In this document: positions 1,618 to 58,429 of the stretch, piece after piece
Numbering within the stretch: position 1 is the first letter of the stretch
Layout of the letters: each line of letters opens with the position of its first letter
Assembly: GCF_042453785.1 (NCBI RefSeq)
Contig: NC_091677.1
Location: 28,459,501-28,523,500, forward strand
DNA: 64,000 nt
From: Malus domestica
Taxonomy: Eukaryota > Streptophyta > Magnoliopsida > Rosales > Rosaceae
Direction of reading: 5' to 3'
Translations under genes and position numbers: made by a program
The notes under the pieces: model-generated
The model's input: only the letters and a program-made list of their open reading frames with translations
What the model was told of the DNA's origin: nothing
Databases searched by the model: none

Positions 1618-2130
1618 TGTTTGTACCATACTTGACCAATCCCGAAACTACCGAGCACCGGCCAACACTATACTGTCAAGGACCCAGAAGAGTTCCCCTC
1701 CGACCAGGAGGCCAATCACTACTCGACACGTGTCAAGATTAGAAGCCAATCAGAGCGCAGCACGTGTCGACATCAAGAACCAATCATAACATGACACATG
1801 TCAATGTGACAAAGCTACAAGTTTTTCTATAAATAGGGGTCATTCCCCCACAATATTGCCTAATGCCATTTTGTGTTAAATCATTCACAAGAACTCACTA
1901 AATTGAGAGCTTGATCCTTTGTACTTGTGTAAACCCTTCACTACTAATAAGAACTCCTCTACTCCGTGGACGTAGCCAATCTGGGTGAACCACGTACATC
2001 CTGTGTTTGCTTCTCTGTCTCTATTCATTTACGTACTTATCCTCACTAGTGACGGAAGCAACCAAGCGAAGGTCACAAAACCTGACACTTTCTGTTGTAC
2101 CAAAGTCTTCGCTGATTTTGTGCATCAACA
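1618..2130 (+). repeat. 5' LTR (513 bp)
   Basis: Matches 9761-10273 along its whole length, with two differences (position 1667 A against G, position 1760 G against T). It starts TG and ends CA. It contains a TATA box at 1828-1835 and three 34-bp upstream modules, so it should drive transcription of the gag side. Confidence 0.95.
1712..1835 (+). promoter_or_regulatory. LTR promoter: three 34-bp CCAAT plus ACGTG modules and TATA box
   Basis: CCAATCA occurs at 1712, 1746 and 1780, exactly 34 bp apart. Thirteen bases into each module is a 10-bp palindrome or near-palindrome: GACACGTGTC (1725-1734), AGCACGTGTC (1759-1768) and GACACATGTC (1793-1802). TATAAATA follows at 1828. CCAAT boxes bind NF-Y and CACGTG-type boxes bind plant bZIP or bHLH factors, so this looks like an amplified enhancer. 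The same array is in the 3' LTR, with CCAATC from 9855 and TATAAATA at 9971. Function is inferred from motifs only. Confidence 0.75.
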
Positions 2131-2132
2131 TT

Positions 2133-2150
2133 TGGCGCCGTCTGTGGGAA
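2133..2150 (+). other. Primer-binding site of the LTR element
   Basis: Directly downstream of the 5' LTR is TGGCGCCGTCTGTGGGAA, the place and style of a tRNA primer-binding site in plant gypsy elements. I did not assign the tRNA. Confidence 0.7.
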
Positions 2151-2237
2151 ACGACACTTATTCCTACTCTCTTCAGCTGTGTCAAGCTGGTTTCTATCAT
2201 TCGTACACTTTCTTTTGATCAGGCATCCCTCTCCAGC

Positions 2238-3656
2238 ATGGGAAGCGAAGGAAGCCACAGCACACAGAATGACACCCCCCTTGCACATAGTGCGAAACAA
2301 CGAAAGAAGGAAGGAAAACGAGTTCTTCTTCAAGCTAAAGTCGATGAGTTGGAAGCTCAGAACAACAAGATAGCAATGAGGAATGAGGTCTTCCAGGAGC
2401 AATATGAGAAGCTCTTCGAGACACTTCACGAAGCTAAGCAAGCTCAGACACGCGAGCTTGTTGCCCCCGTGGAAGTCAACCATCAACTGGGTGCCCTCCA
2501 ACATGGAGGGTCACATGCATTCGACATAGATATCCCTGATAGGGAACAAATTACCCCTCGATTTGATAATCAACATGAGGCTTCTCTTAACCCAGTTGCT
2601 TCGACCCGAACCATGAGAAGCGGAGGGAGACACCTCTTTGCTGAAGGGGCAGAAGGATCGAAAGCCGTCTTTCGCGATTGTCGGGATTTCCTGAAGCAAC
2701 GTCGAGAGAATTCCATCCATATAAGCTCAAAGATCAATGACCCAAGGATTTCTGAGAGACTCGGTCCCCTGCCACGGCCCGAGCCGGCCACCAACTTGGG
2801 GAAGGGGCAACAAGTCCTAGAGAGACATGAGGGTACAGGGGACTCAGAGGTGTTCCGACAGACATACCCTGGAAGCCAGTACAGCGAGTCCAGGGAAAAA
2901 TCACATGCCCTTGATCAAACCTTCCTAATTCCAAGAGGAGATGGAGATTTACGAAAGAAAGCTCCAGTGGCACATAACTCTGCTCATGACCCCCTTGTCC
3001 TACAACTTCTTGAGGAAGTAAACAAGTTGAAGGCTGAACGTCAGGCTGAAATACCTGACTGGAACCAACCCAGGCCTGGCCCTCTTACAAGGAGGATCCT
3101 CAACACCCTCCTTCAAGCAAAGACAAAGCAGAAGCTTGGCTTGCAACTTTATACTGGAAAAGAGGACCCGATTGAGCACCTTAACCTCTTTGAGTCCACC
3201 ATGGCATACCGGATGCACACCGACGAAGAGCGATGTCTTCTCTTCCCCTCCACCCTCTCTGGCGGAGCTCTAAATTGGTATTGTCGTCTTACACCTGAGA
3301 CGGTAGACTCATTTGAGGAATTGAGGAAACTATTTGTTTCCCAACACATTTTCCAAACCGATCGCTTGCACTCTGCAGATGACCTGTACACTATCCGCCA
3401 GAGGCCAGACGAGTCATTACGTATGTATGCTGGCCGCTTCAGCCATGAATACTCCCGGTGTGCCGAGGCAGACGACAAGACTGCCCTCAAAGCCTTCACG
3501 GCAGGCCTACGTGATTGTTTCTTTAAATACATGATCAATGCCAATACTTGGAAGACTTACTCTGAGGTGATGGCGCAGGCTTATAACCATGCCTCCGCCG
3601 AGGCAAAGACATATCAGGAGAAACCCCCTCACCCAACGCCATGGAGGAAGAACTAG
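2238..3656 (+). CDS. gag: Retrotransposon gag polyprotein (gypsy type), gag only
   Basis: An ORF of 472 residues from the ATG at 2238 to a stop at 3654-3656. The open frame continues upstream into the LTR, but the first ATG after the primer-binding site is a better start. The N-terminal third is hydrophilic with a Lys/Glu-rich coiled-coil-like stretch. The C-terminal part, roughly residues 270-450, is a retrotransposon gag (capsid) domain, recognisable from 'HLNLFESTMAYR', 'GALNWYCRL' and 'SLRMYAGRFSHEY' in the usual order and spacing. The protein should form the particle that packages element RNA. No CCHC zinc knuckle is seen, and the expected downstream protease and polymerase are missing; the sequence just after the stop is degenerate. 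The ORF is intact, in line with the element being young. Confidence 0.85.
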   Translation: MGSEGSHSTQNDTPLAHSAKQRKKEGKRVLLQAKVDELEAQNNKIAMRNEVFQEQYEKLFETLHEAKQAQTRELVAPVEVNHQLGALQHGGSHAFDIDIPDREQITPRFDNQHEASLNPVASTRTMRSGGRHLFAEGAEGSKAVFRDCRDFLKQRRENSIHISSKINDPRISERLGPLPRPEPATNLGKGQQVLERHEGTGDSEVFRQTYPGSQYSESREKSHALDQTFLIPRGDGDLRKKAPVAHNSAHDPLVLQLLEEVNKLKAERQAEIPDWNQPRPGPLTRRILNTLLQAKTKQKLGLQLYTGKEDPIEHLNLFESTMAYRMHTDEERCLLFPSTLSGGALNWYCRLTPETVDSFEELRKLFVSQHIFQTDRLHSADDLYTIRQRPDESLRMYAGRFSHEYSRCAEADDKTALKAFTAGLRDCFFKYMINANTWKTYSEVMAQAYNHASAEAKTYQEKPPHPTPWRKN

Positions 3657-3989
3657 CAATAGCTAAAGTTTGACGGTTGGGAAGATCATCCAATGTTTCT
3701 CTAGTACAGGACTCTAACAAAGACCCTGAAGACTCCGACATTGCAAACTCAGACTTAGAGCTAAAGCTAGAAGAGCCCTCATCACTAGAACTTCCAGGCT
3801 CTGACATCTACAATAAGAAGAAACAAATTCTATCACTACATGCATGATCAAAACATAAGGAAGTTCCTATATTACCCACATGAAGATGGTGCAAAGCGAT
3901 GCCGGAACCCTTCTCAATCAGAAAGCAATCCGTCTTCCACAGTCACTACAAAACAAGCAAATGAAGACCGTGTCAAGCGCCAAAAAAAA

Positions 3990-4298
3990 AAAAAAACAGC
4001 TTCATCCAAAAAGCTTCACCCGAAAAGCTTCACCTCCAAAACTTCACCCAAAAAGCTTCATCCAAAAAGTTTCACCCAAAAAGCTTCACCTAAAAAAGCT
4101 TCACCCAAAAAAAAAAAACTTCACCTCCAAAAAGCTTCACCCAAACAGCTTCACCTAAAAAAGCTTCACCCACAAAGCTTCACCTAAAAAGCTTCACCCA
4201 CAAAGCTTCACCCAAAAAGCTTCACCTCCAAAACTTCACCCAAAAAGCTTCATCCAAAAAGTTTCACCCAAAAAGCTTCACCTAAAAAAAGCTTCACC

Positions 4299-4334
<36 letters not shown>

Positions 4335-4915
4335 TCACCTCCAAAAAGCTTCACCCAAACAGCTTCACCTAAAAAAGCTTCACCCACAAAGCTTCACCTA
4401 AAAAGCTTCACCCACAAAGCTTCACCCAAAAAACTTCACCCGAAAAGCTTCACTTAAAAAAGCTTCACCTACACAGCTTCACCTAAAAAAGCTTCACCTA
4501 GAAAGCTCCCTCTACATACTTTCACCTACAAAGCTTCACCATCAAAGCTTCACCTCGAAAGCTTCATCTACAAAGCTTCATCTACAAAGCTTCACCATCA
4601 AAGCTTCACCCAAAAAGCTTCACCTAAAAAAGCTTCACCCAAAAAAAAACTTCACCTCCAAAAAGCTTCACCCAAACAGCTTCACCTAAAAAAGCTTCAC
4701 CCACAAAGCTTCACCTAAAAAGCTTCACCCACAAAGCTTCACCCAAAAAACTTCACCCGAAAAGCTTCACTTAAAAAAGCTTCACCTACAAAGCTTCACC
4801 TAAAAAAGCTTCACCTAGAAAGCTTCACCTACATAGCTTCACCCAGAAAGCTTCACCATCAAAGCTTCACCTAGAAAGCTTCAACACCAAAGCTTCACCT
4901 ACAAAGCTTCAACAC
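3990..4915 (+). repeat. AAGCTTCACC minisatellite inside the LTR element
   Basis: About 900 bp made of short degenerate units of the form AAAAGCTTCACC(C/T), 10-14 bp long because the A-run varies, up to a long pure A stretch near 4309-4331. Larger blocks are themselves repeated, for example 4060-4190 against 4260-4400 and 4610-4740. The HindIII site AAGCTT recurs dozens of times. The open frames across it are low-complexity by-products. Confidence 0.9.
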
Positions 4916-5499
4916 AAAACCTTGCTCCAAATAAACAAATTTTGTTCACAAAACCCAAGATGCCCTTGAACTTGTACAAAAACACAGGTCAACACAAACA
5001 TTTGTTTTGTTCTACACCCACAACATCCCTGTCATAACCAAACAAGCAATTATGTATATGTTTCCAAACATATTATAATAGATCCAACAACAAGCCAAAG
5101 TCCCAAGTTTCATAATGGACAAAAGTACAAGCAATTCATCAATAATGAAGGTGCTACAAAACTTGGAATCTGCCCCAAAATAGAAATCCAACCCAAGAGA
5201 CTTTTTCTCTCTCTCCCTCTTCCGCCTCCTTTCATCTATCAAATTTCTGCAACCTCTGCTCTTCTCCAATGGAGCTGAATTTTGGACACCCTATAGTTTT
5301 TGAGCATATGAACAACTTTCAAGAAGGAACCATTTCTGTTTGAGCGACGGAAATTAAAGTGTTGAAGCTCCAAACATGACAGTCGGATTCTTGCAGATTT
5401 CGAAGCTGCTATGATGTTTCGAAGATCTGGAAATATTTAACCATTAGTTCATTCTGAATTTTTGATATGTTATGAAAGAGACGATGAGGCACAACTTCA

Positions 5500-6260
5500 A
5501 TGAAGAAAGCATGCTGATCTGAACAATAGAAAATGGAGTTTCGAAGCTCACAACAAATCTGACGGGTTGACAGAAAAATAATAACCAGTCATTCATCATA
5601 CCTAAATTTCTTGAGTTATATAGCTCCAAGGGATCTCAAATTTGGATATGTTGTAGTTCACAAGCTGAGGAACAACTTCAATGAAGAAAGCATGCTGATC
5701 TGAGCAAGAGAAAATAGAGTTTCAAAGCTCACAACAAATCTGACGGGTTGACAGACAAATGATAAACAGTCACTCATCATACCTGGATTTCTGGAGTTAT
5801 ACTGCTCCGAGGGACCTCAAATTTGGATATGTTGTAGTTCACAAGTTAAGGAACAACTTCGATGAAGAAAGTATGTTGATCTGAACAAGAGAAAATGGAG
5901 TTTCGAAGCTCACAACAAGTCTGACAGGTTGACAGAAAAATGATGAACAGTCACTCATCATACCTGAATTTCTGGATTTGTACTGCTCCGATGGATCTCA
6001 AATTTGGATATGTTGTAGCTGACAAGGTGAGGAACAACTTCGATGAAGAAAGTATGTTGAGATGAACAAGAAAAAATGGAGTTTAGAAGCTCACAACAAG
6101 TATGACGGGTTAACAGAAAATTGATGAACAGTTACTCATCATACCTGAATTTCTGGAGTTGTACTGCTCCGATGGATCTCAAATTTGGAGATGTTGTAGT
6201 TCACAAGATAAGGAACAACTTTCATGAAGACGACTTTGCGATCTGAGTTATAGAGAATGG
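5500..6260 (+). repeat. About 181-bp tandem array (four units)
   Basis: A block containing 'aatggagtttcgaagctcac' and 'ctcaaatttggatatgttgt' recurs with starts near 5517, 5697, 5878 and 6059 and a partial fifth near 6240, a period of about 181 bp. Units differ by scattered substitutions. No coding frame persists through it. Confidence 0.85.
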
Positions 6261-6844
6261 TGTTATCTTGCATCCACTCAGGCTGATTAGTGGAAACGAA
6301 AAGCAATTCCACCAAAGAAAATATGAAAAAGAGAGAAAAGCTACTAATTGCACTTGATCTTGTCTAGTCAATAGCATGCAGCATCAAACACACAAAAGTT
6401 GGAAATATTTTTAGATAAGGCATATGCGAATGTGTGACATCGAAACAAGGATTCGTTACTTTGACAAATTAGTAACAAGCGAGACACCTCATTCGGCAAC
6501 TCTCTTCGCCTGAAGACTTGGGGGACTCCCACCATATGCTACTGCACCTTGATACTCGGCAGTCTCACAACCACTCAGTGACTTGGATTTTTCAAGTCTC
6601 CAACCGAGAAGTTTTCCTCACTCGGGAAATCAAGGGAACACTACCTCAAACTACATGCTTCACTCACAAAGCTTCAACAATACAGGTTTCAACAAAAGCA
6701 AAAATTCAAAGAACTTTATGAAGAAGGCTTTGGTGTATTTAACACAATATGTTGAAATGAAGCAAAGCTTATTTATTAATATTTTCGATAAGCCACAAAT
6801 ATGTACATATACATGAGTCAAAATAAACAAACAAAAGGGAGCCT

Positions 6845-7519
6845 TCACAAAGGTTGCTTAGGGGAAGTCTCAGCAGTCGGTAGAGCCCCAGAAAGAGAAA
6901 GCACCGGAGGGTGGTTATCCGGAGCCTCAGTACTTGACAAAACCCCAGAAGGAGGAGGCATTGGAGGTTCATCATTTGAAGCTTCATTACCAGGTACAGC
7001 CCCAGAGGACGAAGGCAATAAATGCCTTTGGAACAAACCCACAAACCGCTGATGATCAAGTAAAACCTTACCATCAGATTCCTTCATCTGGTCAAGCTTC
7101 CTCTTCATGTTTGTAGCATAGTCATGGGCGAGCCGGTGCAACTGCTTATTCTCATGCTTGAGCCCTCTAATCTCCTGTTTGAGACTCATCACTTCAGCAG
7201 CCAATGATTCAACTTGGCGGGTTCTAGCAAATAGGCGTTGGGCCATATTAGACACAGAACCTGCACACTGAACACTAAGAGCCAGAGAGTCCTTAACAGC
7301 CAACTCATCAGACCGTTTGGAAAGTAGTCTGTTATCTTTGGGAGTGAGAAGGTTCCTGGCCACCACTGCAGCGGTCATATCATTCTTCATCACAGAATCC
7401 CCAACGGTAAGAGGACCAGTAGGGGATATGAAGGATGGGCGCCATATGTTGTCTGGAGAAGGCGTGGCTGTCTCTTCTCCAAGGTTCAAGTCAAAACGAC
7501 GGTCAGAGGGTCCAGACAT
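6845..7519 (-). CDS. Antisense ORF of the LTR element: coiled-coil protein, function unknown
   Basis: A 224-residue ORF opposite to gag, from the ATG at 7519-7517 to the stop at 6845-6847. I do not recognise a named family. The N terminus has 'RFDLNLGEE', whose DLNL core resembles an EAR repressor motif (weak). Residues about 85-150 are Leu/Glu/Lys-rich with heptad-like spacing ('VESLAAEVMSLKQEIRGLKH'), a likely coiled coil. The C-terminal 53 residues contain two 19-residue Pro/Ser-rich repeats starting 'SGAVPGNEA' and 'SGVLSSTEA' and a shorter third starting 'SGALPTAET'. A related, frameshifted copy lies at 17078-17754 in another element. Antisense extra ORFs are known in some plant Tat-lineage LTR elements; whether this is one of them, or a captured host gene, is open. 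Confidence 0.7.
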   Translation of the reverse strand: MSGPSDRRFDLNLGEETATPSPDNIWRPSFISPTGPLTVGDSVMKNDMTAAVVARNLLTPKDNRLLSKRSDELAVKDSLALSVQCAGSVSNMAQRLFARTRQVESLAAEVMSLKQEIRGLKHENKQLHRLAHDYATNMKRKLDQMKESDGKVLLDHQRFVGLFQRHLLPSSSGAVPGNEASNDEPPMPPPSGVLSSTEAPDNHPPVLSLSGALPTAETSPKQPL

Positions 7520-7660
7520 TTTCAAATGTGTTGAAGAAGGAAGAGGTCAGACAAATCAAGATCTTAGAAGTGCAAGAAATGAGCTTCTACTGGTAGAGAT
7601 TCAAGTGTGCTGTGGAACTTAATGCCAGCCTCTATAAAAATCTGCACTCGACGGAGCTTC

Positions 7661-7870
7661 AGAAATCGAAGAGGCGTTTGCTTTCTCAAAAGCTGGGCTG
7701 CTCAGAGACCACGAGGGCCGATCTCAGAAATCGAAGAGGCGTTTGCTTTCTCAAAAGCTGGGCTGCTCAGAGACCACGAGGGCCGATCTCAGAAATCGAA
7801 GAGGCGTTTGCTTTCTCAAAAGCTGGGCTGCTCAGAGACCACGAGGGCCGATCTCAGAAATCGAAGAAGC
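7661..7870 (+). repeat. 65-bp tandem array (three full units)
   Basis: The motif AGAAATCGAAGAGGCG recurs at 7661, 7726 and 7791, with a diverged start at 7856, an exact 65-bp period. The three full units are almost identical, so the expansion is recent. Because 65 is not a multiple of three, each unit is read in a different frame and no repeat protein is implied. A diverged version lies at 17898-18140. Confidence 0.9.
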
Positions 7871-9760
7871 ACCTGCTTTTTCAGCCTCGTCAGCACCTGT
7901 CACATGCACAATCAGCTTTGCGAAAATTACGGGCAATCTGTCGAAGATTTCTGGTGAAGTAAAAAGAACGTGAATCTTACTGTTCAATCACCGCTCTCCA
8001 TATGCACCATCAACTCCTCGGGTACCACATATAACTTTTTCAAAGATCTCTGACAAAGTTTAGGCACGAGAATTTCGAAGTTCCAGCTACCCTACTATTA
8101 CCCATAAGGGTAAAGGAACAGCACCACTGCTTGACAACTGGAAAGTCCCTATGTGTGTCGACCTCCGTGTTTTGCGGCAAGACAGGTTGGCAAGAACGTC
8201 CAACCTTTACTCACATTCGAGAAAAGACTCCCAACATAATTACTTTCTCAAAAACCGGAGTAGCACCGCTTTCCGAATCTCGAGAGTCAGATCCTTGACG
8301 GGATTGCTTGTTCGAAAACCAAAGAGGCACAACTCTCAGAACTTCGAGAGCCAGATTTCCTTAGATAAAGCTTGTCTGTAATCTTCACACGTAACATCAG
8401 CTTTCCAGATACCACATACCACTTTTTCAAAGTGCTCTGACAAAATTAAAACACGTGAAGCTGGCAGCTCCCACTACATTGCTGTGACCAAGAAGGGTAA
8501 AGGAATAGCATTACTACTTGTTATTGGGAAATCCCTATATACATTGACCTCCCTCCTCAACGGACAGGCAAACCTGCAAAAATGCTCAACCCTTTCTCGC
8601 ATTCGAAAAGGAACCCTCAACATAACCTCTCGAAATACTCAGCTTTATTTCCCCCCGATAATACCGCAGCAAATAAGCCACACCAAGAACAAGAGTATCT
8701 CATATCATCAGGGTCGAAAGCAAGAGTATCCCATATCATGCTTTCTCCCTATCTTTGTCTTTGTCCTTGTCCACACTTGCAGGACAAGGAGAAAGAGAGC
8801 AGTCAGTCGGAACCTGAAATCAAACCTCCAATTTGGAACTGACTGCCTGGAGCCTTTGCCTGGTTGCTTACTTAGCATTGCTATCGAGTACTCATCCTCA
8901 ACTGCTGTCAAGGTCACGAATTCCACCGGCAAATACCTCATGACAGTTGATCAGATATTGGCTATTTACACTGAAGCTGCCAAGCGTGGATGAGTCACTA
9001 TGAAGGAATGTTCTGAAGGACCATTAAAATGCAAAGGTTGCACACCACTTCTGCCATGCAAAAGATTGAAGCAGAAGGTTCAACGGTGAGCTGAAACAGA
9101 TCACTACAGCATGACACCTTTCCATACCACATTCATTATTCCGTCAACAGCAAAAGTATCCCATATCATCAAGGTCGAACGTACTCTAGATTTGATGGAC
9201 TTGTTTTGACCCTCAAATTTTTGAGTCGGCCTTATACTCTGAAGGGCACCAGAAAACCCTCCAGCACAGTTCAAGAATAAGCTTGTGGAAAGTTACTTCT
9301 TCAAAAGCAAAAGTATCTCATATCATCTCTTATCCATTTGCTTCTCCTTATCCTGGCAGTTGAATGAGAGACAAGGAGAAGGAGAACAATCAACCGGAAG
9401 CCGAAGTCAAACCTCTGATCCTGGGTTGCTTACTTGGAAGTTTGACTGCTTACCTTGTCTGTCACCTCTTTCGGCAGATCTCCTAGCTCGGCGACTTGGG
9501 GGACTCCTACTATAGGGTTTGTATCACACTTGACTAAGCCCGAAACTACAACTAAGCTTTAAGTGAAATTGATACATTACCTTGTGCGTCAACATCAGCT
9601 AAGTACACCATTCCCGGATGGAGGAAAGGTACTTCCAGAGAAGGGCAGATGAAGATCAGACCACACTTCGGTACTTAGAAGTTTCGTGATTACTCAAGGG
9701 ATTGGATCTTGCAAGTCCCCAACCGAGGAGTTTCCCTCACTCGGGAACTTAGGGGAGCAC
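7871..9760 (+). other. Non-coding 3' internal region with an older LTR-like piece
   Basis: No persuasive coding sequence. It is collinear with 18140-19960 in the second element. At 9495-9515 a purine-rich 'gacttgggggactcct' is followed by 'gtttgtatcacacttgact', which resembles the start of this element's LTR and matches the LTR start of the second element (19861). This looks like a truncated LTR of a related subfamily held inside the newer element. The true polypurine tract for the outer LTR is 'aggggagc' at about 9751-9758. Confidence 0.6.
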
Positions 9761-10273
9761 TGTTTGTACCATACTTGACCAATCCCGAAACTACCGAGCA
9801 CCGGCCAACGCTATACTGTCAAGGACCCAGAAGAGTTCCCCTCCGACCAGGAGGCCAATCACTACTCGACACGTGTCAAGATTAGAAGCCAATCAGAGCG
9901 CATCACGTGTCGACATCAAGAACCAATCATAACATGACACATGTCAATGTGACAAAGCTACAAGTTTTTCTATAAATAGGGGTCATTCCCCCACAATATT
10001 GCCTAATGCCATTTTGTGTTAAATCATTCACAAGAACTCACTAAATTGAGAGCTTGATCCTTTGTACTTGTGTAAACCCTTCACTACTAATAAGAACTCC
10101 TCTACTCCGTGGACGTAGCCAATCTGGGTGAACCACGTACATCCTGTGTTTGCTTCTCTGTCTCTATTCATTTACGTACTTATCCTCACTAGTGACGGAA
10201 GCAACCAAGCGAAGGTCACAAAACCTGACACTTTCTGTTGTACCAAAGTCTTCGCTGATTTTGTGCATCAACA
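9761..10273 (+). repeat. 3' LTR (513 bp)
   Basis: The same length and ends as 1618-2130, with two base differences. It is preceded by a purine tract and followed at once by TATGA, the target duplication also found at 1613-1617. Confidence 0.95.
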
Positions 10274-10278
10274 TATGA

Positions 10279-11650: not shown

Positions 11651-11787
11651 CAAATTATCAATCTTTAATCCTACCAAATTAATCTACCAAGTTCCCATCA
11701 AGTTCCAAGTTCCAACCCTCAGCAACCGGTAACTTCAGATTCAAATTTCATCTCAGTGCTTCTGAATCCTGATCCCAAATCTGGAAG

Positions 11788-14695
11788 ATGGAGAAGGAAC
11801 CGGTGGTACCGAACCAGCAAGAAGAAACGGAAGCTGAAGCTTTGGAGCTTGTTCTTTTTCAAGTGCCTGAATGTTACGTGTACTTGGTAATATACATACA
11901 CACATACTTACATTCATGCATACATCATGTGCCCGAATCCTTGTGCTTTCCTGAATTTTTTGAGTAATTCTGTTAATGGGTATCTTGGGAATGCATAATT
12001 CAACTAGATTTCTTGATGAACATTGGTGCATGTACTAGTTGAATGAATGAATATTGCAGGCGTGCAATTGCCAATGTTGGTTAATTCCGGAGTTAAATGT
12101 TAATTAAAATTTGTTTAATTTGTGGTAATTTGAGTGCAAAATTAGGGTAATGGAGGAATAGTTTAATTTTGTTTTGCTAGTTCAAGTGTTGACAGTAAAT
12201 CCCTTTTCAGCTAGTAACCACTTAGTGCTTGTTTTCGATCTGCCATCAAATACAAAATCATGGCTCTTGGTTTTCAGTTTACAAGTAATCATAAGGATTC
12301 GATAATGCGAGAAATGTTTGGTTACTCTTGTATGGCGGTTCTTGAAGTTATTTGTGGTGTCAAGCTATTTTGTAATGTAACTTTTGCAGATACCGCCGAG
12401 GAAAAGTGCAGCTTCATACAGGTTTTGCTCAACTCATGGAATAAAAAATAGGATATTCATCTGACAGTTTATTTATGATTAATCTGATACGATGCCATCT
12501 GTTATCATGATTGATATGAGTTATTTGTAATTTTAATTCGGTCCACACATCGATTAGTTACCACAAAATGAAGCTTACAATTAGGCTAGATTGTATGAGT
12601 TTTTCGTAATCTATTTTGGGGATAAGTTTTCTGAGATTGAGTTAGATTGACACAAAACCAAGGAATCAACAAATAAACAGATAAACAAACGGAGATGAGT
12701 TTTATTAGTCCGGATATTGGGTGCTTCTTAACCATAGAAGTTAGAACAAACAAACAAAAAGAAGAGTAATCTATCTATTGGCGTTGATTACTGGCGGAAC
12801 TCTTTATTGCATGTGTTGGAGATGAGTTTTACGTCTCTGAAGTTTATTTCAGGGCTGATGAATGGGATGTAAACAAATGGGTATGGGAAGGGATATTGAA
12901 AGTAATCAGCAAAGGAGAAGAGTGCATTATCAGACTTGAAGATAAGAACACCAGTGAGGATATTTTAGTTGTTATATAAGATGTAAACTGTGTTGTATGC
13001 CTTCCTTTTGTAGCATGGGACATTTTGTTATTTAAAATGTAAGGTGATATATCCTTGCAGGTGAACTATATGCTCGGGCGTTTTTGAGAAATGGAGAGCC
13101 TTATCCAGTGGAACCTGTAATTGATAGCAGCAGGTTTATCCTAATTCTCACTAACTGGAACGCATCTTTATTGGACTTCTCATGTTAAAACATCACGCGC
13201 CTAAATTACTTACAAGAAGATTCCTTTGCATTAAGTTTATCGAGGAGCATAATCTTATGTAAGTTTTAACTTATGCATTTTGATTAGTTTCTAGAGGGTG
13301 ACTGAATGTTATTTGTTCTGCAGATATTTTGTTCTACGTGTAGAGGAGAACATTGGTGAGCTTATATACTTTCTCATTGTTGCAATCTCTAATGATTTAG
13401 TGAATCCTACTAGCCTATTGTTGGAACAATTCAAAGAGTGTTTTAGCTTGTATTTCCATTCGTACCTAGAACTAGAAGATATTGGGTGAAAAATTGCCTT
13501 AGATCAAGAGAAACCATGGAAATTCATCCTCTGATACATATCCATTCTAGGCATGTGAACTTTCCTTTACTGCGTGCATGACTTTTAAACTTCCAAATAG
13601 ATGGCCTGTAGTGGGAGAGGGCTAGTAATTACAAGCCTTCCATTTGTCCATAGTGGCTTGGACAAGAGTAGACTAGAACGTTGAAGTTAATTAGTGCCAT
13701 CATCATGTGGTGTTTTGCCACAAAATCATAGACGAGGAAGTTGACCAAGAATTGCAACTCGTATCTAAGTATTATGCCACTTCTTTTGTTTCATTTTATT
13801 TTTCTTAGCTCTTGTATTCCTGTTTCCCCAAAGTTTTGTGCCAGACAGCAATGCAATTTCGGGCTTCTTAGACAAATTTTTATTTCCTTTGATTTGTTCA
13901 TGTCATGTATGATCCTCATTACATTGAAATTGATGCAGATGGTCGACTTCGGCATGCATTCATTGGCCTTGGATTTCGAGAAGGAACAGAAGCTTATGAT
14001 TTCCAAGCCACCTTGCATGATCACATGAAGTATGTCCTATATGTACAGTGACAATTTTGCGTATTCTTCATTTTCTACTATAACATTTTTAGAAGCTTTT
14101 GATTTGATTTTTAATGCATGTGTATCAGAGGATGAATTTCCGTCTATCGAGCTCATGTACCTTTCTAAATTGTTTTGAAGATATCTGGACAAAAAGAAAA
14201 CTGCGGAAGAGATGGAACAAAAATTTCAGCAAACTTCCTCAGTTGATTACAGCTTAAAAGAGGGGGAGACTATTGTACTACAATTAAAGAATGTTAGTGA
14301 TCTGCATCGCATTTTCTTTCAAGATGTGTGGTTTTGACTTATGCTACTTACTGGAGCATGCTGATTGAATTTCTTTTCGGTGTCAACAGAAAACTGCTGA
14401 AATCGTGAAGTCCAAGGTTTCTGAGAACAACTCCTCACCAGAGAAAAAGGCTAACAAAAAAGAATCCTTGATTTGTATCAAACCACCACCTCCTCCCCCG
14501 GCACCACTTTCGCCTTCTGCTACTGTTGACAAGTCTTCCTCAAACTTGCCTTCAAATCTCAACCTTGAGGGAACTTCTAAGCACGAGGCCTCAGAATCAC
14601 CGGAACATGAGTCGAAAGAAACAAGCTCTTCCGGGAATCAAAGCACTCAAGATATACCAGATGACGACTTTGGGGATTTTCAGACAGCTGTTTAA
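11788..14695 (+). CDS. NECAP: NECAP-like adaptin-ear-binding coat-associated protein
   Basis: Eight exons: 11788-11886, 12390-12421, 12853-12953, 13061-13133, 13324-13355, 13939-14029, 14181-14292 and 14390-14695. All introns are GT-AG. The joined frame is 281 residues and closes exactly. Residues about 19-170 form the PHear (NECAP) domain, shown by 'LVLFQVPECYVY', 'DEWDVNKWVWEG', 'ELYARAFLR', 'RYFVLRVEENI', 'RHAFIGLGFREGTEAYDF' and 'VDYSLKEGETIVLQLKN', in family order. A Pro/Ser-rich tail ends in 'DDDFGDFQ', an acidic FGDF motif of the kind that binds AP-1/GGA ear domains. NECAPs are cytosolic accessory proteins of clathrin-coated vesicles that link adaptor ears to cargo uptake. Length fits the family. 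The ATG at 11788 follows a GA-rich leader and starts the only frame that joins exon 2. Confidence 0.95.
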
Positions 14696-15440
14696 TACGA
14701 ATCGATAAACTTTGATATGAGATATCAAACGCCTGAAGATGTCGTTCGCTTTTTGATGCATTGCGCGTTTGTGACGGTTTAGATTTTGTTTGTACAAAAA
14801 TTTGGTTGATCTGGTGCATACAAAAGTGAAGTTACTGAGAAAGCAAAATTTGCAAATTATAAAAATTAGAGGGAAGAAAAGAAACTTATATGGAAAGATC
14901 TTTAAAATTGCACTGCAGGTAATTTTGTGAAAACAACTTGAATTACTACATGGCAATAATGTATCAATCTTTCTAAATACTTAATCGTTAGTTCGTGTGT
15001 GCTTAATTTGTTTTTTAAAAAACATTAAAAAAAAGGAACATCACTGGTCTTTTATGGATGAGGATCTCTCTGATCCTCTTTGTGAGGATCCATGAGATCA
15101 ATTCATTTTGATCGTTCATCGTACATAGTTCATTTTGATCGTTCATCGTACATCGTGCGATTAGCTTTTGTTAGTCACTGTTTGTGTTTCATTCAAAATG
15201 ATTTATGATTGCAAAATGACTGATGAACATATAGGATAAACTAATCTCTAGGATCCTCACAAAGAGGATCTGATTAGGATCCTATTCCATCTTTTATTTC
15301 GAAGTACATGATGAGTAGAGCACACCGAGAACTTGAATGTGCCATATCATCGAAATCAAAGATACTTCAAACTACTCTACTAGTCTTGCTGCATGCATGT
15401 TGCAGTGCATGCCAATTGCAAATTCTACAAGTTGGTAGAG
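14696..15440. other. Space between convergent genes; contains a MITE
   Basis: 3' flank of the NECAP-like gene and, on the other strand, of the coiled-coil gene. Apart from the hairpin element at 15056-15287 nothing coding is seen. Confidence 0.5.
15056..15287. mobile_element. MITE-like hairpin, GGATCCTC family, copy 1
   Basis: The two ends are inverted copies: TCCTCTTTGTGAGGATCC on the left is mirrored by GGATCCTCACAAAGAGGA on the right. Inside, 'gttcatcgtacatcgtgcg' is shared with copies at 30831-31053 and 33735-33927. About 230 bp, non-coding. No target duplication could be fixed. Confidence 0.75.
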
Positions 15441-16912: not shown

Positions 16913-16953
16913 CAATGGCGTTCTAAGATTCATATAGCCGACCCCACTCAGTG
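16913..16953 (+). mobile_element. 3'-terminal scrap of an RTE-type LINE
   Basis: The sequence 'ttctaagattcatatagccg' followed by 'accccactcagtg' matches the 3' end of the LINE at 20310-21061. It stops exactly where homology to the LTR element starts (16954). Confidence 0.8.
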
Positions 16954-17077
16954 AAGAAAGCTTTGGTGTATTTAACACAATACGTTGAAATGAAGCAAAA
17001 CTTATTTATTGATATCTCCGATAAGTTACAAATATGTACATATACATGAGTCAAAATAAACAAACAAGAGGGAGCCT

Positions 17078-17754
17078 TCACAAAGGTTGCTTAGGAGAAG
17101 TCTCAGCAGTCGGTAGAGCCCCAGAAAGAGAAGGCACCGGGGGGGGGATCATTCGGAGCCTCAGTATTGGACAGAACCCTAGAAGGAGGAGGCATCGAAT
17201 GTTGATCATTTGGAGCTTCAATACGCGGTACAGCCCCAGAAGACGAAGGCAATAAATGCCTTTGGAACAAACCCACAAACCGTTGATGATCAAGTAAAAC
17301 CTGACCATCAGATTCCTTCATCTGGTCAAGCTTCCTCTTCATGTTTGTAGCATAGTCATGTGCGAGCCGGTGCAACTGTTTATTCTCATGCTTGAGCCCT
17401 CTAATCTCTTGTTTGAGACTCATCACTTCAGCTGCTAATGATTCAACTTGGCAGGTTCGAGCAAATAGGCGCTGGGCCATATTAGACACAGAACCTGCAC
17501 ACTGAACACTTAGAGCCAGAGAATCCTTAACAGCCAACTCATCAGACCGTTTGGAAAGTAGTCTGTTATCTTTGGGAGTGAGAAGGTTCCTGGCCACCAC
17601 CGCAGCAGTCATATCATTCTTCACCACGGAATCCCCCAACGGTAAGCGGACCAGTAGGGGATAAGAAGGATGGGCGCCATATGTTGTCTGGAAAAGGCGT
17701 GGCTGCCTCTTCAACGAGGTTCAAGTCAAAACGACGGTCGGATGGGCCAGACAT
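17078..17754 (-). pseudogene. Broken copy of the antisense coiled-coil ORF
   Basis: Same protein as 6845-7519, with the ATG at 17754-17752. The coiled-coil middle is nearly unchanged ('SLKQEIRGLKHENKQLHRLA'). The reading frame is broken at least twice: near 17631-17638 a C run is one base longer than in the intact copy, and near 17139-17147 a run of G has lengthened. N-terminal, middle and C-terminal parts therefore lie in different frames. The G and C runs suggest slippage after selection was lost. Confidence 0.8.
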
Positions 17755-17897
17755 TTTCAAAGGTGTTGAAGAGAGAAGAGGTTGGACAAATCAAGATCTT
17801 AGAAGTGCAAGAATGGAGCTTCTACTGGTGAAGATTCAAGTGTGCTTTGGAACTTAATGCCAACCTCTATAAAAATCTGCACTCGACGGAGCTTCAG

Positions 17898-18140
17898 AAA
17901 TCGAAGAGGCGTCTGCCCAGAAATCGAAGAGGCGTTTGCTTTCTCAAAAGCTGGGTTGCTCAGAGACCACGAGGGCCGACCTCAGAAATCGAAGAGGTGT
18001 TTGCTTTCTCAAAAGCTGGGTTGCTCAAAGACCACGAAGGCCGATCTCAGAAATCGAAGAGGCGCTTGCTTTCTCAAAAGTTAGGCTACTCAGAGACCAC
18101 GAGGGCCGATCTCAGAAATCGAAGAGGCACCTGCTTTTTT
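17898..18140 (+). repeat. Diverged 65-bp tandem array
   Basis: Three to four units of the 'agaaatcgaagaggcg' repeat seen at 7661-7870, here with several substitutions per unit and a short partial unit at the start. Confidence 0.8.
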
Positions 18141-18562
18141 TAGCCTTGTCAGCACATGTCACATGCACACTCAGCTTTGCTGAAATTACGGGCATTCTGT
18201 TGAAGATTTCTGGTGAAGTAGAAAGCACGTGAATCTTACTGTTCAATCATCCACTTTCCACACGCACCATCAGCTCATGGGTACCATAGATAACTTTGCC
18301 AAAGATTTCTGACAAAGTTTAGACACGTGAAGCTTGCAGCTCCCACTACATCGCTATGACCAAGAAGGGTAAAAGAATAGCAAAGAAACAGCATTAACAA
18401 AGTTTAGATACATAAATTTTGAAGGTCTAGCTACCATATTATTACCTACAAGGGTAAAGGAACAGCATCGCTGCTGGATAATTGGAAAGTCCTTGTGTGT
18501 CAACCTCTGTGCTCTGTGGCAAGGTAGACTAGCAAACATGCCCAACCTTTACTTACATTCGA

Positions 18563-18830
18563 GAAAACACTCCCAACAAGATTGCTTGCTCCAAAATCGA
18601 AGAGGCACCGTCCTCCGAATCTCGAGAGCCAGACTCCCAACATGATTACTTTCTCAAAAATCGAAGAGACACCGCTCTCCGAATCTCGAGAGCTAGACTC
18701 CCAGCAGGATTGCTCTCTCAAAAATCGAAGAGGCACCGTTTTCCGAATCTCGAAAGCCAGATCTCCGACAGGATTGCTTGTACGAAAACCGAAGAGGCAT
18801 CGCTTTCTCAACTTCGAGAGCCAGATCTCA
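18563..18830 (+). repeat. About 64-bp tandem array of the CGAAGAGGCA type
   Basis: About four units, each with 'aaaatcgaagaggcaccg' and 'gaatctcgagagccaga'. The first element has about two units at the matching place (8225-8365), so unit number differs between copies. The core is related to the 65-bp array. Confidence 0.75.
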
Positions 18831-19860
18831 TTGGATAAAGCTTGTCTGTAATCTTCACACGCAACATCAGCTTTCCAGATACCACAGACCACTTTTTCAA
18901 AGTGCTCTAACACACGTGAAGCTGGCAGCTCCCACTACCGTGCTATGACCAAGCAGGGTAAAGGAATAGCATTACTACTTGTTGTTAGGGAAACTCCTAT
19001 ATATGTTGACCTCCATCCTCAACGAACATGCATACCTGCAAAAATACTCAACCCTTCCTCATATTTGAGAGGGCACTCCCAACGAAGCCTCTCGAAATAC
19101 TCAGCTTTCTTTCCCCCCGATAATACCTCTGCAAACAAGCTACACCAGAGCAAGAATATCTCATATCATCAGGGTTAAAAGCAAGAGTATCCCATATCAT
19201 GTTTTTTCCCTGTCTTTTCCTTTGGCCTTATTCTTACCTGCAAGACAAGGAGAAAGAGAGCAATCAATCAGCACTTGGAATCAAGCTTCCAGTCAGGAAC
19301 TAACTGCCTGGAACCCCTTACCTGATTACTTACCTGGCATTGCTCTCGAGTACCCATCTTCAACATCTTATGCTTTCAGAGAAGATACTACATCTGCATG
19401 AGGAACAGATAGGGAAAGTGAGAAGGATACAAGGAAGCATGTGGAGACAAGCATAACAGAACACGTGCCGATACATCCACTACATTGTCAACAGCAAAAA
19501 AAGTATCTCATATCAGCAGGGTCGAACGTACTCTAGATTTGATGGACGTGTTTTGACCCTCAAATTCTTCAGTCGGCTTTATACTCTGGAGGAAACCAGA
19601 AAATCCTCCAGCCCAGTTCAAGAATAAGCCTGTGGAAAGTTACTTCTTCAAAAGCAAAAGTATCTCATATCATCTATTCTCATTTTCTTCTCTTTATCCT
19701 TCATGCTGCCTGCAAGATAGGGAGAATGAGAACAATCAGCCGGAACTCGAAATCAAACTTCTGATCTGGGACTGATTGCTTGGAGCTCTGATTGCTTACC
19801 TTGTCTGTCACCTCTTTCAGCAGATCCCCTAGCTCGGCGACTTGGGGGACTCCTATTACA

Positions 19861-20309
19861 TGGTTTGTATCGCGCTTGACCAAGCCTGAAACTACAAGTA
19901 AGCTTCAAGTGAAATTGATACATTACCTTGTGCATCTCCACCAGTTAAAGATACCACCCCTGGATGGAGGAAGTGTACTTCCAGAGAAGACGCCACATCT
20001 ACCTATGAGACAGTTAAGGCAAGTGAAGACGAGAGCCTGCATCTATGTCATTTGTACTAAATCATTCACTTGTATTCACTAAAGGAGAGCTTGAACCTAT
20101 GTACTTGCGTAAACCCTTCACAATTAATGAGAACTCCTCTACTCCGTGGACGTAGCCAATCTGGGTGAACCACGTACATCTTGTGTTTGCTTTCCTGTCT
20201 CTATCCATTTACATACTTATCCACACTAATGACCAGAGCAATCTAGCGAAGATCACAAACTTAATACTCTATGTTGTACCAAAGTCCTCACTGATTTTGT
20301 GCATCAACA
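19861..20309 (+). repeat. 3' LTR of the truncated element
   Basis: About 449 bp, starting TGGTTTGTATCG just after a purine tract and ending GTGCATCAACA as in the first element. The last 260 bp align well with the 513-bp LTR. The block carrying the three CCAAT/ACGTG modules is absent. The 5' half matches 9516-9650. Confidence 0.75.
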
Positions 20310-21061
20310 ATTCTTAAGTCCTTACCTTTTTGCGTTGGTAATGGATGAGTTAACATGACATATTCAAGATGATATTCTTTGGTGTATGCTTTTCGCAGAC
20401 GATATAGTGTTGATAGATGAAACTCAGGAGGGGTAAATGCGAAGCTTAACTTTTGGAGAGAAGTGTTGGAATCTAAAGGTCTTCGCCTAAGCCGATCAAA
20501 GACAAAATATATGGAGTGCAAGTTCATTGCAAATGGAGGCCAAAATGAGTTAGGGGTGAGGATCGGAGATCAGGAAATACCAAAGAGCGACTGTTTTCGC
20601 TACCTATGATATATCTTGCAAAAGAACGGAGAATTAGATGGAGATCTCAACTATAGAATACAAGCTGGATGGATGAAGTGGAAGAGTGCTTCCGGCGTGT
20701 TGTGTAACCGTGGTAGGCCACTAAAGCTCAAGGAAAAATTTTATAGGACGGCAATAAGGCCGGCGATGCTGTATGGCACAGAATGTTGGGCGGTGAAGCA
20801 TCAACATGTACACAAAATGGGTTTGGACATGTACAAAGAAGACCTACTGACGCTCCGGTTCGAAGATGGGACTACGGGATAGAGGTTCAGGGCCGAAGGG
20901 GTAGAGGTAGACCTAGGAAAACTTTGGAAGAGACCCTAAGAAAAGACTTAGAGTACTTGGATCTAACGGAGGATATGACACAAAACCGCGCAAAATGGTG
21001 TTCTAGGATTCATATAGCCGACCCCACTTAGTGGGAAAAGGCTTTATTGTTGTTGTTGTTG
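20310..21061 (+). pseudogene. RTE-type LINE reverse transcriptase remnant
   Basis: The translation shows 'LSPYLFALVMDEL' and, further on, 'FADDIV', the catalytic FADD block of non-LTR reverse transcriptases, but in a frame broken by stops and shifts. Downstream come the usual conserved tail ('gattcatatagccgacccca') and a terminal TTG repeat after 'aaggcttta'. The 5' end is missing, as is common for LINEs. It abuts the LTR end at 20309 without a visible target duplication. Confidence 0.8.
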
Positions 21062-21309
21062 AATAGATACGTGCAAGGGATGCTATCAAAACATACAGTA
21101 CTTGAAAACAAGAAGAAATACCATTCAGGCAAAGGAACAATCTCTTGTTCTACCTATTTCATTCACTAACAACCTAATATTTGAAAGGAATGAGGATGAT
21201 TTTCGTTTGCGCATTTACTAACATCTAAAGAATGAAGTGATTGGATAACAAACTTTGGATATCTTATACGTACATTCTCATACCTGGAAAAAAAAAATCA
21301 AGATATGAA
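21062..21309. other. Anonymous spacer
   Basis: AT-rich spacer between LINE and gag relic; nothing recognised. Confidence 0.4.
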
Positions 21310-21700
21310 ATTACCATGGGGTCTCTTGCGATTCACCATTATTTGACTTGGAAACTTTCCGGGCTCTCTTTGAGCAATTGGATTGGATCAACAAGCTGCC
21401 CAATTTGAACTTCAAATTTCCCAATGACAGCTTGTGTGTTTTGCTCTAATCTTGGAAGTATTAGAGTCATTCACTGGGGCCTCGGTTGTAGGCGTTCACC
21501 ATGTTGCCTTGCTCTTGCATAAATTCTGGATAAGCAGCTCCTAATGGCCATGCAATGGCAGGCCTCACGCACAGCACAAACTTCATTTGATTGTGTCATG
21601 GAGTTCATAGCAAGGATAGCATCGAATTTCCTCTCTAACTTTGCAATCTGCGCATTAGAAAAAGGATCATTACCTTTTGTATCTGTGTGTTTTGAGTTTC
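21310..21700 (-). pseudogene. Probable gypsy/Athila-type gag relic
   Basis: Read on the minus strand, pieces such as 'FMQEQGNMVNAYNRGP' and 'FKLGSLLIQ' recall the linker after the gag zinc knuckle in Athila-like elements (a CPAF..EQ..YNR block followed by a QIGQL block). Stops and shifts interrupt it and the cysteines are mostly lost. The call rests on memory of the family pattern and is tentative. Confidence 0.4.
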
Positions 21701-21730
21701 ATTCGCAATTTGCTCGATCGTATAGTAAGG

Positions 21731-23208
21731 GGCGTAGTTAAACTCAGATTTTAAAGGATTTTAAAAGCCTAATGTAGTCAAGGATTTTAAAGGATTTTGA
21801 AATCCATGTAATTCTAAGTATAATTAATCGAGATTTTAATAGTTATTTTAAAAATCTATCTAAATGTAGGTGTATTAAAAAATTAAAGATTTTATAGAAT
21901 TTCATTAAGTTGTAAATTTTGTGAAATTTAAAAGCAATAAGTATATATAAACCAAATAAAATCTTAGTATATATAACCAAAACCAAATAGAATATTACTT
22001 CACACCATAGGATTTCAAATTCATAGACCTCTTTGAATGTTTTACTCTCTCTTCTTCTCACTGCTTGCCAGCCACTTTTTTCGCTTTATCTTCTCCCTTC
22101 ATCTATGCAATTTTTTCTTCAATTTTCGTTGCTGGGCTATCTCATTTATGGGTTGAATCATTTCTCAAATGGGTTCTTGGGTTCATCTCTATAAATTTCG
22201 GATATGGGTTGCCGGGTTCCCTCATTTGTGGATAAATATGATGTTGGATTGCATCATTTCGTTGCTGGGTTGCATCATTTTTTAAATTTTGTTTAATTTA
22301 ACTCATACCAGAAATCTTTATCGCATGCCCAATTTTTTTTTTTAAATCTGTGCAAAAAGCACCAATCTTTCATAGACTTGTGATCATTTTATCTCATGCC
22401 TAATTTTGTATTTGTAAAAAATCGAATGAAAATTGTATTTGTTTTCAAAATTTGATATGTTAAAGATATATTTGTTACCATTTGATTATTTGACAATCAA
22501 GATTCAACGTTTTAAAATCTATCAAAATTCATAGAAATTTATTATATAAATGTTCTGAAATCTTTCAAAATCTATATGGATTTTGTAGGCCTCAAACCGT
22601 TCCAATTCATTTTACATCTCCCACCGATCTTGAATATCGATTGAAATATAACCTTAATTGATCAAACAACGGTTTATTGGTCATATGCTATGTGCAAGAT
22701 AAAAAAACACTAGGCTTGAGAGAGAAAAATGGTGTTTTGTTATGGGTTTAGGTGGAGAGCATTTTTGCTCATTATCATAAACTATGGTATATTCTTAATG
22801 TACACCTAATTATTTGTCATGTGTCTTTTTATTTAATTTTTGCTACTTTTTTTTCAAAATTGAAAAAGTAACATTCATTGTAAAAGTTAACTAGAGTTAG
22901 AAAAAATACACGTAACAAATTATTAGGTGCATGTTAAACATATACTATAATTATAGTAATGACCAGTATACGAGGTGGTACACCACATGTCACTATACAA
23001 ATAATGGGAAATGTGTGTTAAAAATTTATAACTTAAAAATAAAATTTATCATCACTTTTGTAAAAACAAGTGGTATAATACTTGTGTTCCAGTCACAATG
23101 AAAAATTTCTCCACTTTTAAGGGTGTTTGGTTTCAAGAAGAATGAGTCTTTGAAATTACACATGTCTACATCTCATTGGGCCATGTCAGGTGTCATTAAA
23201 TTTGGATA
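21731..23208. other. AT-rich repeat relics, no gene seen
   Basis: Repeats of 'gattttaaaggatttt' near 21747-21800 and 'tttcaaaatctat' near 22560 suggest a decayed inverted-repeat element spanning about 21735-22600. Short homopolymer and TA-rich stretches fill the rest. No coding signal. Confidence 0.4.
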
Positions 23209-27724: not shown

Positions 27725-29308
27725 TTAAGAACTAAGAATGACTTTGGAGGTGTCCAAGACCAAAGATACATACAATAGCCTATTCCAGGTATCTGGCAGG
27801 CCAGGCAAACACCAGTGGCTGCAATCAGCATAAGTCTCCGGTTTTCTATTTTGCAAAGCTAATAACTGCTTCCACTCCTTTGTCGCATAAACTGCTGGAT
27901 GCGCATCTCTTCGATGCTGAGACAGCTTTGTAATGTTCAGGTACGTCACTGGGGTCTTCATGCGCTGCATTGTTCTCTCAATAACTTTTATAATTTTCCC
28001 CGGAAATGTTGTTTCGTAGGAATCGCCTTCAATGGGTTGGGTTTCGTTGTAACACCAATGCTTTCCCTTGTGCTCTGGTGAAATGCTGCGGAAGAAGACT
28101 CTTGTTTTAGTCGCATCCACATTTTGATCAACCCAACGTGCCCAGGTATTCATTGCCATATCAAATGCTGATTCAATCTCCATATTCTCCATTGTTTTGC
28201 CCTCGTATTGAAACAAGTCCCACCTGCAAATCTCAATTCCATTGGACAACTCCTTGAAAAATATTCATTCATTTTAATTATTAGATCACAAGTGACTTAC
28301 GTCTTGATCTTCCCATGGTGCACCCACCAGTGACCGGTGTTGAATACCATAATGTCTGCCCCTATCCACTTCATGGCCGAGGTTGCAACTCTGTCAAGCC
28401 TAAGAATCCTAGCACCACTATCTTGGTTAACATTTTGCTGCATTAAAAATGGGCTCCAGTAGAATTCAACAGAACAGTTGTACGCCTGCAGTTAAAGAAA
28501 CAAGCAACACCACCACAGTTAAGAAGTCAAGGTCCTATTTTTTATTTTCATCTCCTCAATATCACTATATATGAAGAAAATAGTTCAGTGACGGAGGATC
28601 TTTTGTATAAATGAAAACTCAACCTACCTTAGCTGTGAAGACCTTGTAGATGCCGCTTTTCACGCTGACTAGGGTTTGAGAGGGAGGTAGAGCTGAGTAA
28701 AGAAGACAAGCTAGGGATTCCCACTGGTTTCTGTTAAGTGAGTCTCCAACTATGATCACTCTCTTTCCTCTTAGTCTCTCCAACATGTCTGTTGCGTCAA
28801 ACCTTCCAACCATAACGCACGTGTTTATGTTAGGTACAAATTACAATTAAGGCAACATACAACGTTTAATTCATATACTAGGATTAAGTAAGCAGTTAAC
28901 TTGCCTTGGAATCTTACACCCCTTGGCCTCCCAGCTCCATTTCTCATATATGAAATCCGACCTTCCATTCCTTTGGCAGCTGACCTGGTCACTAAGAAAC
29001 GGACACTGTGCCCCTTTGTACATAGGACTTCCCTTCGGATCGTAAACCCATTTTCCATCAAATATGTTGCACTTGTCTTCTTCATTCAATTGTGTCACAT
29101 GTTCCTCGAAGTATCCTTGTTGCAAGAACTGAATGTTTGCATCTGATTCATTGATCGATATTGTTGATGTTATGTCTATGTTCCCAAGAGTTGATAGGTT
29201 TACGCTGTCGTGGCTGTGTTTGAGAAAGAATATCGGAATGATGCAGCTTATACAGCTTGCAACTATGCAGAGCCTCCATCCTCGACTAACGGGGGATACG
29301 TTGTCCAT
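27725..29308 (-). CDS. TBL: Trichome birefringence-like (TBL) polysaccharide O-acetyltransferase, gene A
   Basis: Four exons on the minus strand: 29308-28905, 28802-28628, 28485-28301 and 28223-27725, giving 420 residues. The first intron appears to start with GC (AAG|GCAAGT), since only this site joins 'CKIP-R' to 'FDA'. The other introns are GT-AG. Residues 12-29 are a membrane anchor. The TBL domain follows with 'CNIFDGKWVYDP' and 'CPFL'. The GDS serine motif 'VGDSLNRNQW' is near residue 154 and the DxxH motif 'DCSHWCLPG' at 388-396 completes the catalytic set of the PC-esterase fold. Family members work in the Golgi and add acetyl groups to xylan, mannan or other wall glycans; the substrate here is not predictable. 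The upstream in-frame codons lack an ATG, so the start is 29308. Confidence 0.93.
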
Positions 29309-42079: not shown

Positions 42080-42334
42080 GGGACGACGTCGTTACCCACC
42101 TCCTCAGCACCGCCATGGCTTCCTGTTTTTAACCCCAATCCGGCCCAACATCACTCTCCACTTCTGAAACGCCAATCAAATCTTTCTAGCGAAAAAAAAA
42201 AGAACCCGAAACCCAAAATCTCTGTATTGAATATAACCTGATCGATCGTGTTATTGCATCGAATACATATTGTGTGTATACATATCAAACAGCTAGCGCT
42301 TTGGTTTGAATCAAGAAAGAAGGAAAGGAAGGAA

Positions 42335-47958: not shown

Positions 47959-48025
47959 GGCTTGTTGCCACTAAGGTATACTAGATGTTTTTCTAAATGA
48001 AGAAGGTTCTTTGCAAGTATTTACT

Positions 48026-51122: not shown

Positions 51123-51554
51123 GATGATATTTCAAGAAACTTGTAATGAAAGATTATATGATATACCTAACAATACACTTTGGCTATTGGCTTTACAAAC
51201 ATGCAATAATCAAGAAAATGGCTATTGGCCTTGTTGAAATTCACTAGAAATGGCTATCGGCCTTATCAACAACACAATCTTGGCTATTGGCTTTATGAAC
51301 AACACAATCTTTGGCTATCAGCCTTAATAATTCTCTACTGCAAAGACTCAATTTTGGCTATTGGCCTTGAATTTTCAAGTAAAAAAAAAAAACCATGCGA
51401 AACAATGTTCACTGACGCATTGAAACAAATAGAAAATGGGCATTGCGTAAACTAGAAAAAGAAGAAGCTTGATGGTAGTCGAAATTGTTACCCAAATCGC
51501 AAAAAAACACCACAAATCCTCAACAATGTCAACGGAAGAACGACATCGAGAATC

Positions 51555-58397: not shown

Positions 58398-58429
58398 ATG
58401 GCTTCGGGGCCTACAGTAGGAGAAGGTGA
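58394..58429 (+). promoter_or_regulatory. Overlapping upstream ORF at the GTE start
   Basis: ATGTATGG puts an out-of-frame ATG four bases before the main ATG. It opens an 11-codon ORF ending in TGA at 58429, overlapping the main frame. If scanned first it would lower translation of the main protein. Confidence 0.5.

Follow-up and report, generated by a model that had tools for sequence, protein, structure and literature searches.

A gag-only LTR retrotransposon of apple, very probably a deletion derivative of a high-copy Retand-like family, with an antisense coiled-coil gene that looks conserved

Positions 1618-10273 of the 64-kb stretch of the apple genome analysed here, which we call the window, are occupied by an LTR retrotransposon with paired LTRs, TG...CA ends and a 5-bp target-site duplication, TATGA, flanking the element on both sides (1613-1617 and 10274-10278). 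The 5' LTR (1618-2130) and the 3' LTR (9761-10273), each 513 bp long and on the plus strand, differ at two positions. Directly 3' of the 5' LTR lies a presumed primer binding site, TGGCGCCGTCTGTGGGAA (2133-2150, plus strand), and a purine-rich stretch adjoining the 3' LTR (9743-9760, plus strand) was picked out by eye as the presumed polypurine tract. The gag ORF (2238-3656, plus strand, 472 aa) contains a capsid domain (PF03732, E 3.1e-14). Pfam searches with X placed at stops and E values up to 10 found no pol domain in the three plus frames of 3601-9760 or in the three minus frames of 3657-9760. The internal region further holds three different tandem arrays, with units of 14 bp (3994-4911, ~64 copies), 181 bp (5483-6230, 4.1 copies) and 65 bp (7659-7867), and an ORF of 224 aa on the minus strand (6845-7519). 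The initial annotation, made from these letters alone, had described an open gag without pol, three arrays and a long antisense ORF in a young copy. That description holds, except that the gag frame is open but shortened: its last ~9 codons fall beyond a deletion joint at 3622-3629.

A stretch containing ACTTGGGGGACTCC is repeated at 6485-6536 and 9463-9514, and a sequence like the LTR start lies inside a second copy of the family (19863-19895), with another picked out by eye near 9513 in the first copy; an older polypurine tract and LTR may have left these remnants. Elsewhere in the window are Copia-type pieces, RVT_2 and Copia gag (47383-47970 and 50604-51131, minus strand), a PC-Esterase domain piece (27728-28264, minus strand) and a bromodomain-BET gene (58359-60440, plus strand). 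Exons at ~11770-14700 (plus strand) presumably resemble a NECAP-type gene, and 42242-44170 (plus strand) has what we take to be a resemblance to a seed biotin-containing protein; at E 0.001 Pfam matched neither 14369-14692 nor 42242-44170. Immediately beyond the second copy, ~20330-20430 (plus strand) carries what we take to resemble a LINE reverse transcriptase motif, and a Pfam search at E 0.001 of the three plus frames of 20306-22300 found nothing.

Is the antisense ORF a gene? Of 2000 sequences simulated from the dinucleotide composition of 3657-9760, four contained an ORF of this length on one strand or the other. Its predicted protein has FDLNL at residues 9-13, a predicted long helix (60-167) and a Pro/Ser-rich tail. 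A single-sequence structure model (mean pLDDT 69.6, pTM 0.35) is chiefly one long helix, with block means of pLDDT 89-98 across residues 81-160, and has low-confidence tails. Searches of the protein against Pfam and PDB returned weak coiled-coil scores and nothing else; viral contigs gave no pattern match to the antisense protein or to gag, and 72 pattern matches in prokaryote genome contigs included no confirmed relative. An EAR-motif repressor was considered and rejected. Repression motifs of the EAR type take the form LxLxL or DLNxxP (as given in the accessible text of PMC11117936), and FDLNL, without the P of the latter and the first L of the former, is a near match only.

Candidate control sites surround the ORF. 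A possible TATA box, TATAGA (7631-7636, minus strand), stands upstream of the antisense ATG and is kept in the second copy at 17871; a possible polyadenylation signal, AATAAA (6772-6777, minus strand), stands downstream and is kept at 17010. The 65-bp array lies just upstream of the TATA-like site, and its units are upstream of the antisense ORF in both window copies. An 18-base core of the unit, sought over the whole window with up to 4 mismatches, occurs at 12 minus-strand places, all in the two copies, and at no plus-strand place. We infer that the product is an accessory coiled-coil protein with a nuclear role.

The second copy (16952-20309, plus strand) is older, 5'-truncated and without gag or a 5' LTR. 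Its antisense ORF (17078-17754, minus strand) is 93.3% identical to that of the first and carries two 1-bp frameshifts. Comparison of these two copies only, the second without its 5' half, gave 45 substitutions over the whole antisense ORF, 26 silent and 19 replacement with no stop (dN/dS 0.21). This silent excess, the lack of which the initial annotation had held would count against its reading, was reached in none of 20,000 draws under a null without CpG effects. Codons 1-40 have six silent and four replacement changes (P 0.04); codons 41-167, the core with the predicted helix, have 13 and three (dN/dS 0.06; P 5e-5, 20,000 draws); the Pro/Ser tail, with seven and 12 (dN/dS 0.62, P 0.37), is indistinguishable from neutral.

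Such conservation could also belong to an antisense RNA or to the DNA itself, perhaps as a source or regulator of small RNAs, with the ORF having no protein function. The TATA-like and polyadenylation-like sites conserved between the window copies would suit this, as would the 65-bp array, the most alike of eight stretches compared between them (95.2%), and regulatory antisense RNA is discussed in the accessible part of PMC7264820. We nevertheless consider it unlikely, in that substitutions cluster at the silent positions of the antisense frame, with 13 of 16 in the core silent against 4.4 expected. The antisense frame alone is stop-free. Apart from it, a silent excess (11 of 16 core changes) is seen solely in the mirror sense frame, which has four stops and shows the excess because its wobble positions overlap those of the antisense frame. 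From this pattern of substitutions, the antisense protein appears to be under selection, and the frameshifts of the second copy would postdate the selected period.

How widespread is the ORF? With the antisense protein as query, the window's own genome (651 Mb, 19 contigs) yielded 10,207 first-look candidates, of which the best 150, all at 99-100% identity and with the window copy included, were scored. Among these best-scoring copies, a set that under-counts broken ones and does not hold the window's older copy, 147 have no internal stop and three have one TAG. Within this genome the ORF is family-wide. Two sets of 20 copies were fetched, the first (L009-L028) hand-picked from the list and mostly minus-strand hits, the second (L032-L051) taken in rough steps down the list as 1.8-kb stretches and classed by probes; L015 and L027 were excluded from the type counts, and since every sampled copy was found through the antisense ORF, copies without it could not appear. 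A stop lies inside the ORF in two of the 18 well-placed copies of the first set (L020 and L021). That the ORF is a captured fragment of a host gene would be in keeping with the failure of its protein to match any Pfam family or solved structure beyond weak coiled-coil scores; yet the ORF stands at 150 scored places and element sequence adjoins it in all 20 copies of the first set, which makes such an origin extremely improbable, though an ancient capture is conceivable. An ORF specific to the window copy is ruled out by the 150 scored copies genome-wide. Neither of the outcomes that the initial annotation had set against its own reading, a mostly broken ORF or a host fragment confined to one copy, was seen in the 150 scored as best of the 10,207.

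The 38 well-placed copies fall into several types: four share the window's deletion joint, two have other deletions of pol, 10 carry a TRP28 gene, 19 have integrase without TRP28, and three (L012, L042 and L049) were left unclassed. Of the other pol deletions, L026 retains gag and integrase, while in L045 gag runs straight into the 14-bp array. Integrase was seen in six of the TRP28 copies, the other four stretches being too short to reach pol; reverse transcriptase (RT) was seen in the eight of the 19 integrase copies that were probed for it. Integrase without a TRP28 gene thus characterizes 19 of the 29 sampled copies showing integrase or TRP28 sequence, and one TRP28-less copy, L031+L009, has identical LTRs.

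The initial annotation had suggested a search for an autonomous partner that has the LTR and primer site of the window element; pol-bearing relatives that share its LTR and primer-site leader do exist, namely L029, L030 and L031. Read from the 5' end, these match the window element at 96-99% in the LTR, 99-100% in the leader with the presumed primer binding site and 98% in gag; for L029, the stretch upstream of L013, the values are 96.4%, 99.1% and 98.1%. In L029 the gag-pol frame runs without a stop for 1721 codons, until the stretch ends; it encodes RT, RNase H and the zinc-binding domain of integrase, and the integrase core follows in the overlapping L013. L030 starts like L029, but its gag-pol frame is interrupted; L031 starts likewise, and RT, RNase H and integrase were all found in L009. 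Between the paired LTRs there are no differences over 518 positions in L029+L013, 2 over 512 in L030+L020 and none over 513 in L031+L009. Matching 5-bp target duplications flank L030+L020, L031+L009, L017, L022 and L026. L029+L013, whose open gag-pol frame is the longest, lacks one and may therefore be a recombinant. In L010, L019 and L030, RT probe segments are ~93% identical to L009 and the LTRs 98-99% identical to the window's, a pattern of identities that suggests recombination between family members.

In some relatives there is another antisense ORF, 362 aa long, which is open in L013, L020 and L028 and whose DNA probes match L014, L021 and L025. The two tested, L013 and L028, weakly match TRP28 (PF04195), a hallmark of Retand elements, with E 3.4e-4 and 3.5e-4, a score of 21.2 bits that lies below the Pfam cut-off of 26.2. 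The window copy gave no TRP28 match and retains an N-terminal remnant alone, the first ~62 codons (3622-3807, minus strand), which form the N-terminal part of a 90-aa ORF at 3535-3807.

This remnant meets the deletion joint, at which an 8-bp repeat, AACCCCCT (3622-3629), links gag with the first part of the antisense TRP28 gene. In pol-bearing copies gag reads GAAACCCCCT followed by ACAACC, and the start of the TRP28 gene reads ACAACCCCCT followed by CACCC; the joint in the window, L017 and L022 reads GAAACCCCCT followed by CACCC. Because the joint combines both parent sequences across their common 8 bases, AACCCCCT, we conclude that the deletion occurred at this short repeat, by template switching or repair. 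The same joint recurs in four of the 38 other well-placed sampled copies, L017, L022, L048 and, with 2 extra bases, L036, and the derivative has therefore multiplied. L017 and L022 have target duplications of their own and so are separate insertions; L036 and L048, judged from position alone, are probably separate as well. The LTR pair of L017 shows 0 differences in 512 positions, and the dated gag-only copies (window, L017 and L022) show 0 to 3 in about 513. Loss of a zinc knuckle from gag was considered and dropped, the pattern being equally absent from the L029 gag-pol.

Why would a gag-only element keep an antisense gene? The initial annotation suggested that the design may be a dedicated parasite of an autonomous partner; on such a reading gag and the antisense protein would be peculiar to the parasite and might, for instance, serve to capture the enzymes of its partner. 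The window element is indeed gag-only and has multiplied, and an open antisense ORF is found in each of the five copies known to have the joint (window, L017, L022, L036 and L048), drawn from a list that favours intact copies. However, the full ORF is found at 99.4-99.9% DNA identity in 14 first-set copies with RT or integrase, and the gag-only copies, with so few LTR differences, are too young for an open frame to show selection. Of that proposal, a non-autonomous element with pol-bearing relatives stands; a dedicated gag-plus-antisense design finds no support, the ORF being present in those relatives too, and we regard it as very unlikely.

We conclude instead, with high confidence, that the window element is non-autonomous and arose by deletion within a Retand-like Ty3/gypsy family of high copy number. 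The assignment to Retand is part of that judgement and draws on the sub-cut-off TRP28 match and the layout. Relatives flanked by the same LTRs have gag-pol together with one or two antisense genes, and a deletion between two copies of the 8-bp repeat fused gag to the antisense TRP28 start, removing pol and most of TRP28. Several dispersed copies have the joint in common, and the derivative was thus mobilised after its origin. Non-autonomous LTR elements obtain RT and integrase from relatives, and this, together with the common leader and LTR, leads us to propose that the pol-bearing relatives supply both. RNA of the derivative would start in the 5' LTR and be packaged, reverse transcribed and integrated by the relatives' enzymes, which would recognise the common leader and LTR ends, and its own gag may contribute capsid. 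The antisense gene would be transcribed from its own promoter, comprising the 65-bp repeats and the TATA-like site, with AATAAA downstream. The coiled-coil accessory protein may act for all members of the family, with the nucleus as its likeliest site by analogy to proposals for Grande and others.

How does this family compare with known systems? In the accessible text of the Retand survey of Vicient 2025 (PMC11963269), antisense ORFs are reported in all clusters, TRP28 in 97% and tandem arrays in about half; 10 of 63 clusters lack some domain, and mining demanded an uninterrupted RT. One cluster, Comarum palustre 1, has an LTR of 483 bp, TRP28 and three tandem arrays (PMC11963269). The apple family resembles these clusters in LTR size, in a long stretch ahead of the 3' LTR that holds antisense ORFs, in a weak TRP28 match in some relatives and in the existence of non-autonomous members. 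Its pol-bearing relatives have the antisense ORF between pol and the 3' LTR, and the window element has internal tandem arrays. It differs in that 19 of 29 copies have integrase without TRP28, and gag-only members could not have appeared in a survey that, as described, needed an RT domain.

Gag-only LTR elements are themselves a named class, TR-GAG, in which gag, or gag plus protease, is the sole sense domain (PMC6022998), and one of them, an ATCOPIA63 element, transposed in Arabidopsis ddm1 (PMC8704663). Like these, the window element has two LTRs, gag as its lone sense coding domain and a need for an autonomous relative; unlike it, no TR-GAG is given an antisense gene in the accessible portions of those two papers. 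Antisense accessory ORFs are described for maize Grande (gene23), rice RIRE2, Silene Retand and bean PvRetro13, with nuclear location and an own promoter for Grande and an SMC domain in PvRetro13 (PMC7264820, accessible part); compared by description only, these resemble the apple family in the position of the antisense ORF between pol and the 3' LTR. HODOR (KX869746), a 9,716-bp high-copy LTR element of apple and pear (PMC6901071, PMC13334179, accessible parts), is alike in copy number and close in size to the deletion derivatives, again by description only. The titles and abstract openings surveyed in the open-access literature describe no gag-only element with an antisense gene. Both components are nonetheless already published, the antisense layout for Retand (PMC11963269) and gag-only elements as TR-GAG (PMC6022998, PMC8704663), in so far as the accessible text of these papers describes them. 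The overall design is thus largely known, and the initial annotation's view of the element as the best candidate for an undescribed system is not supported.

The antisense gene looks genuinely conserved, but it is common to the pol-bearing relatives and not special to the gag-only copy. What might it do? One speculative and rather improbable answer is that its protein is a family-wide regulator whose EAR-like FDLNL would draw host co-repressors to element DNA. On this idea it is retained where TRP28 is lost and it, not TRP28, would be the antisense function needed for family spread, even without pol. The function of the Retand antisense genes is an open question in print, and here a single genome lets three kinds of young copies be set naturally side by side: those with both antisense genes, those in which the coiled-coil gene is the only antisense gene and accompanies pol, and those in which it is the only one and accompanies gag. 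For the gag-only element, the parent sequences and the deletion joint are now identified.
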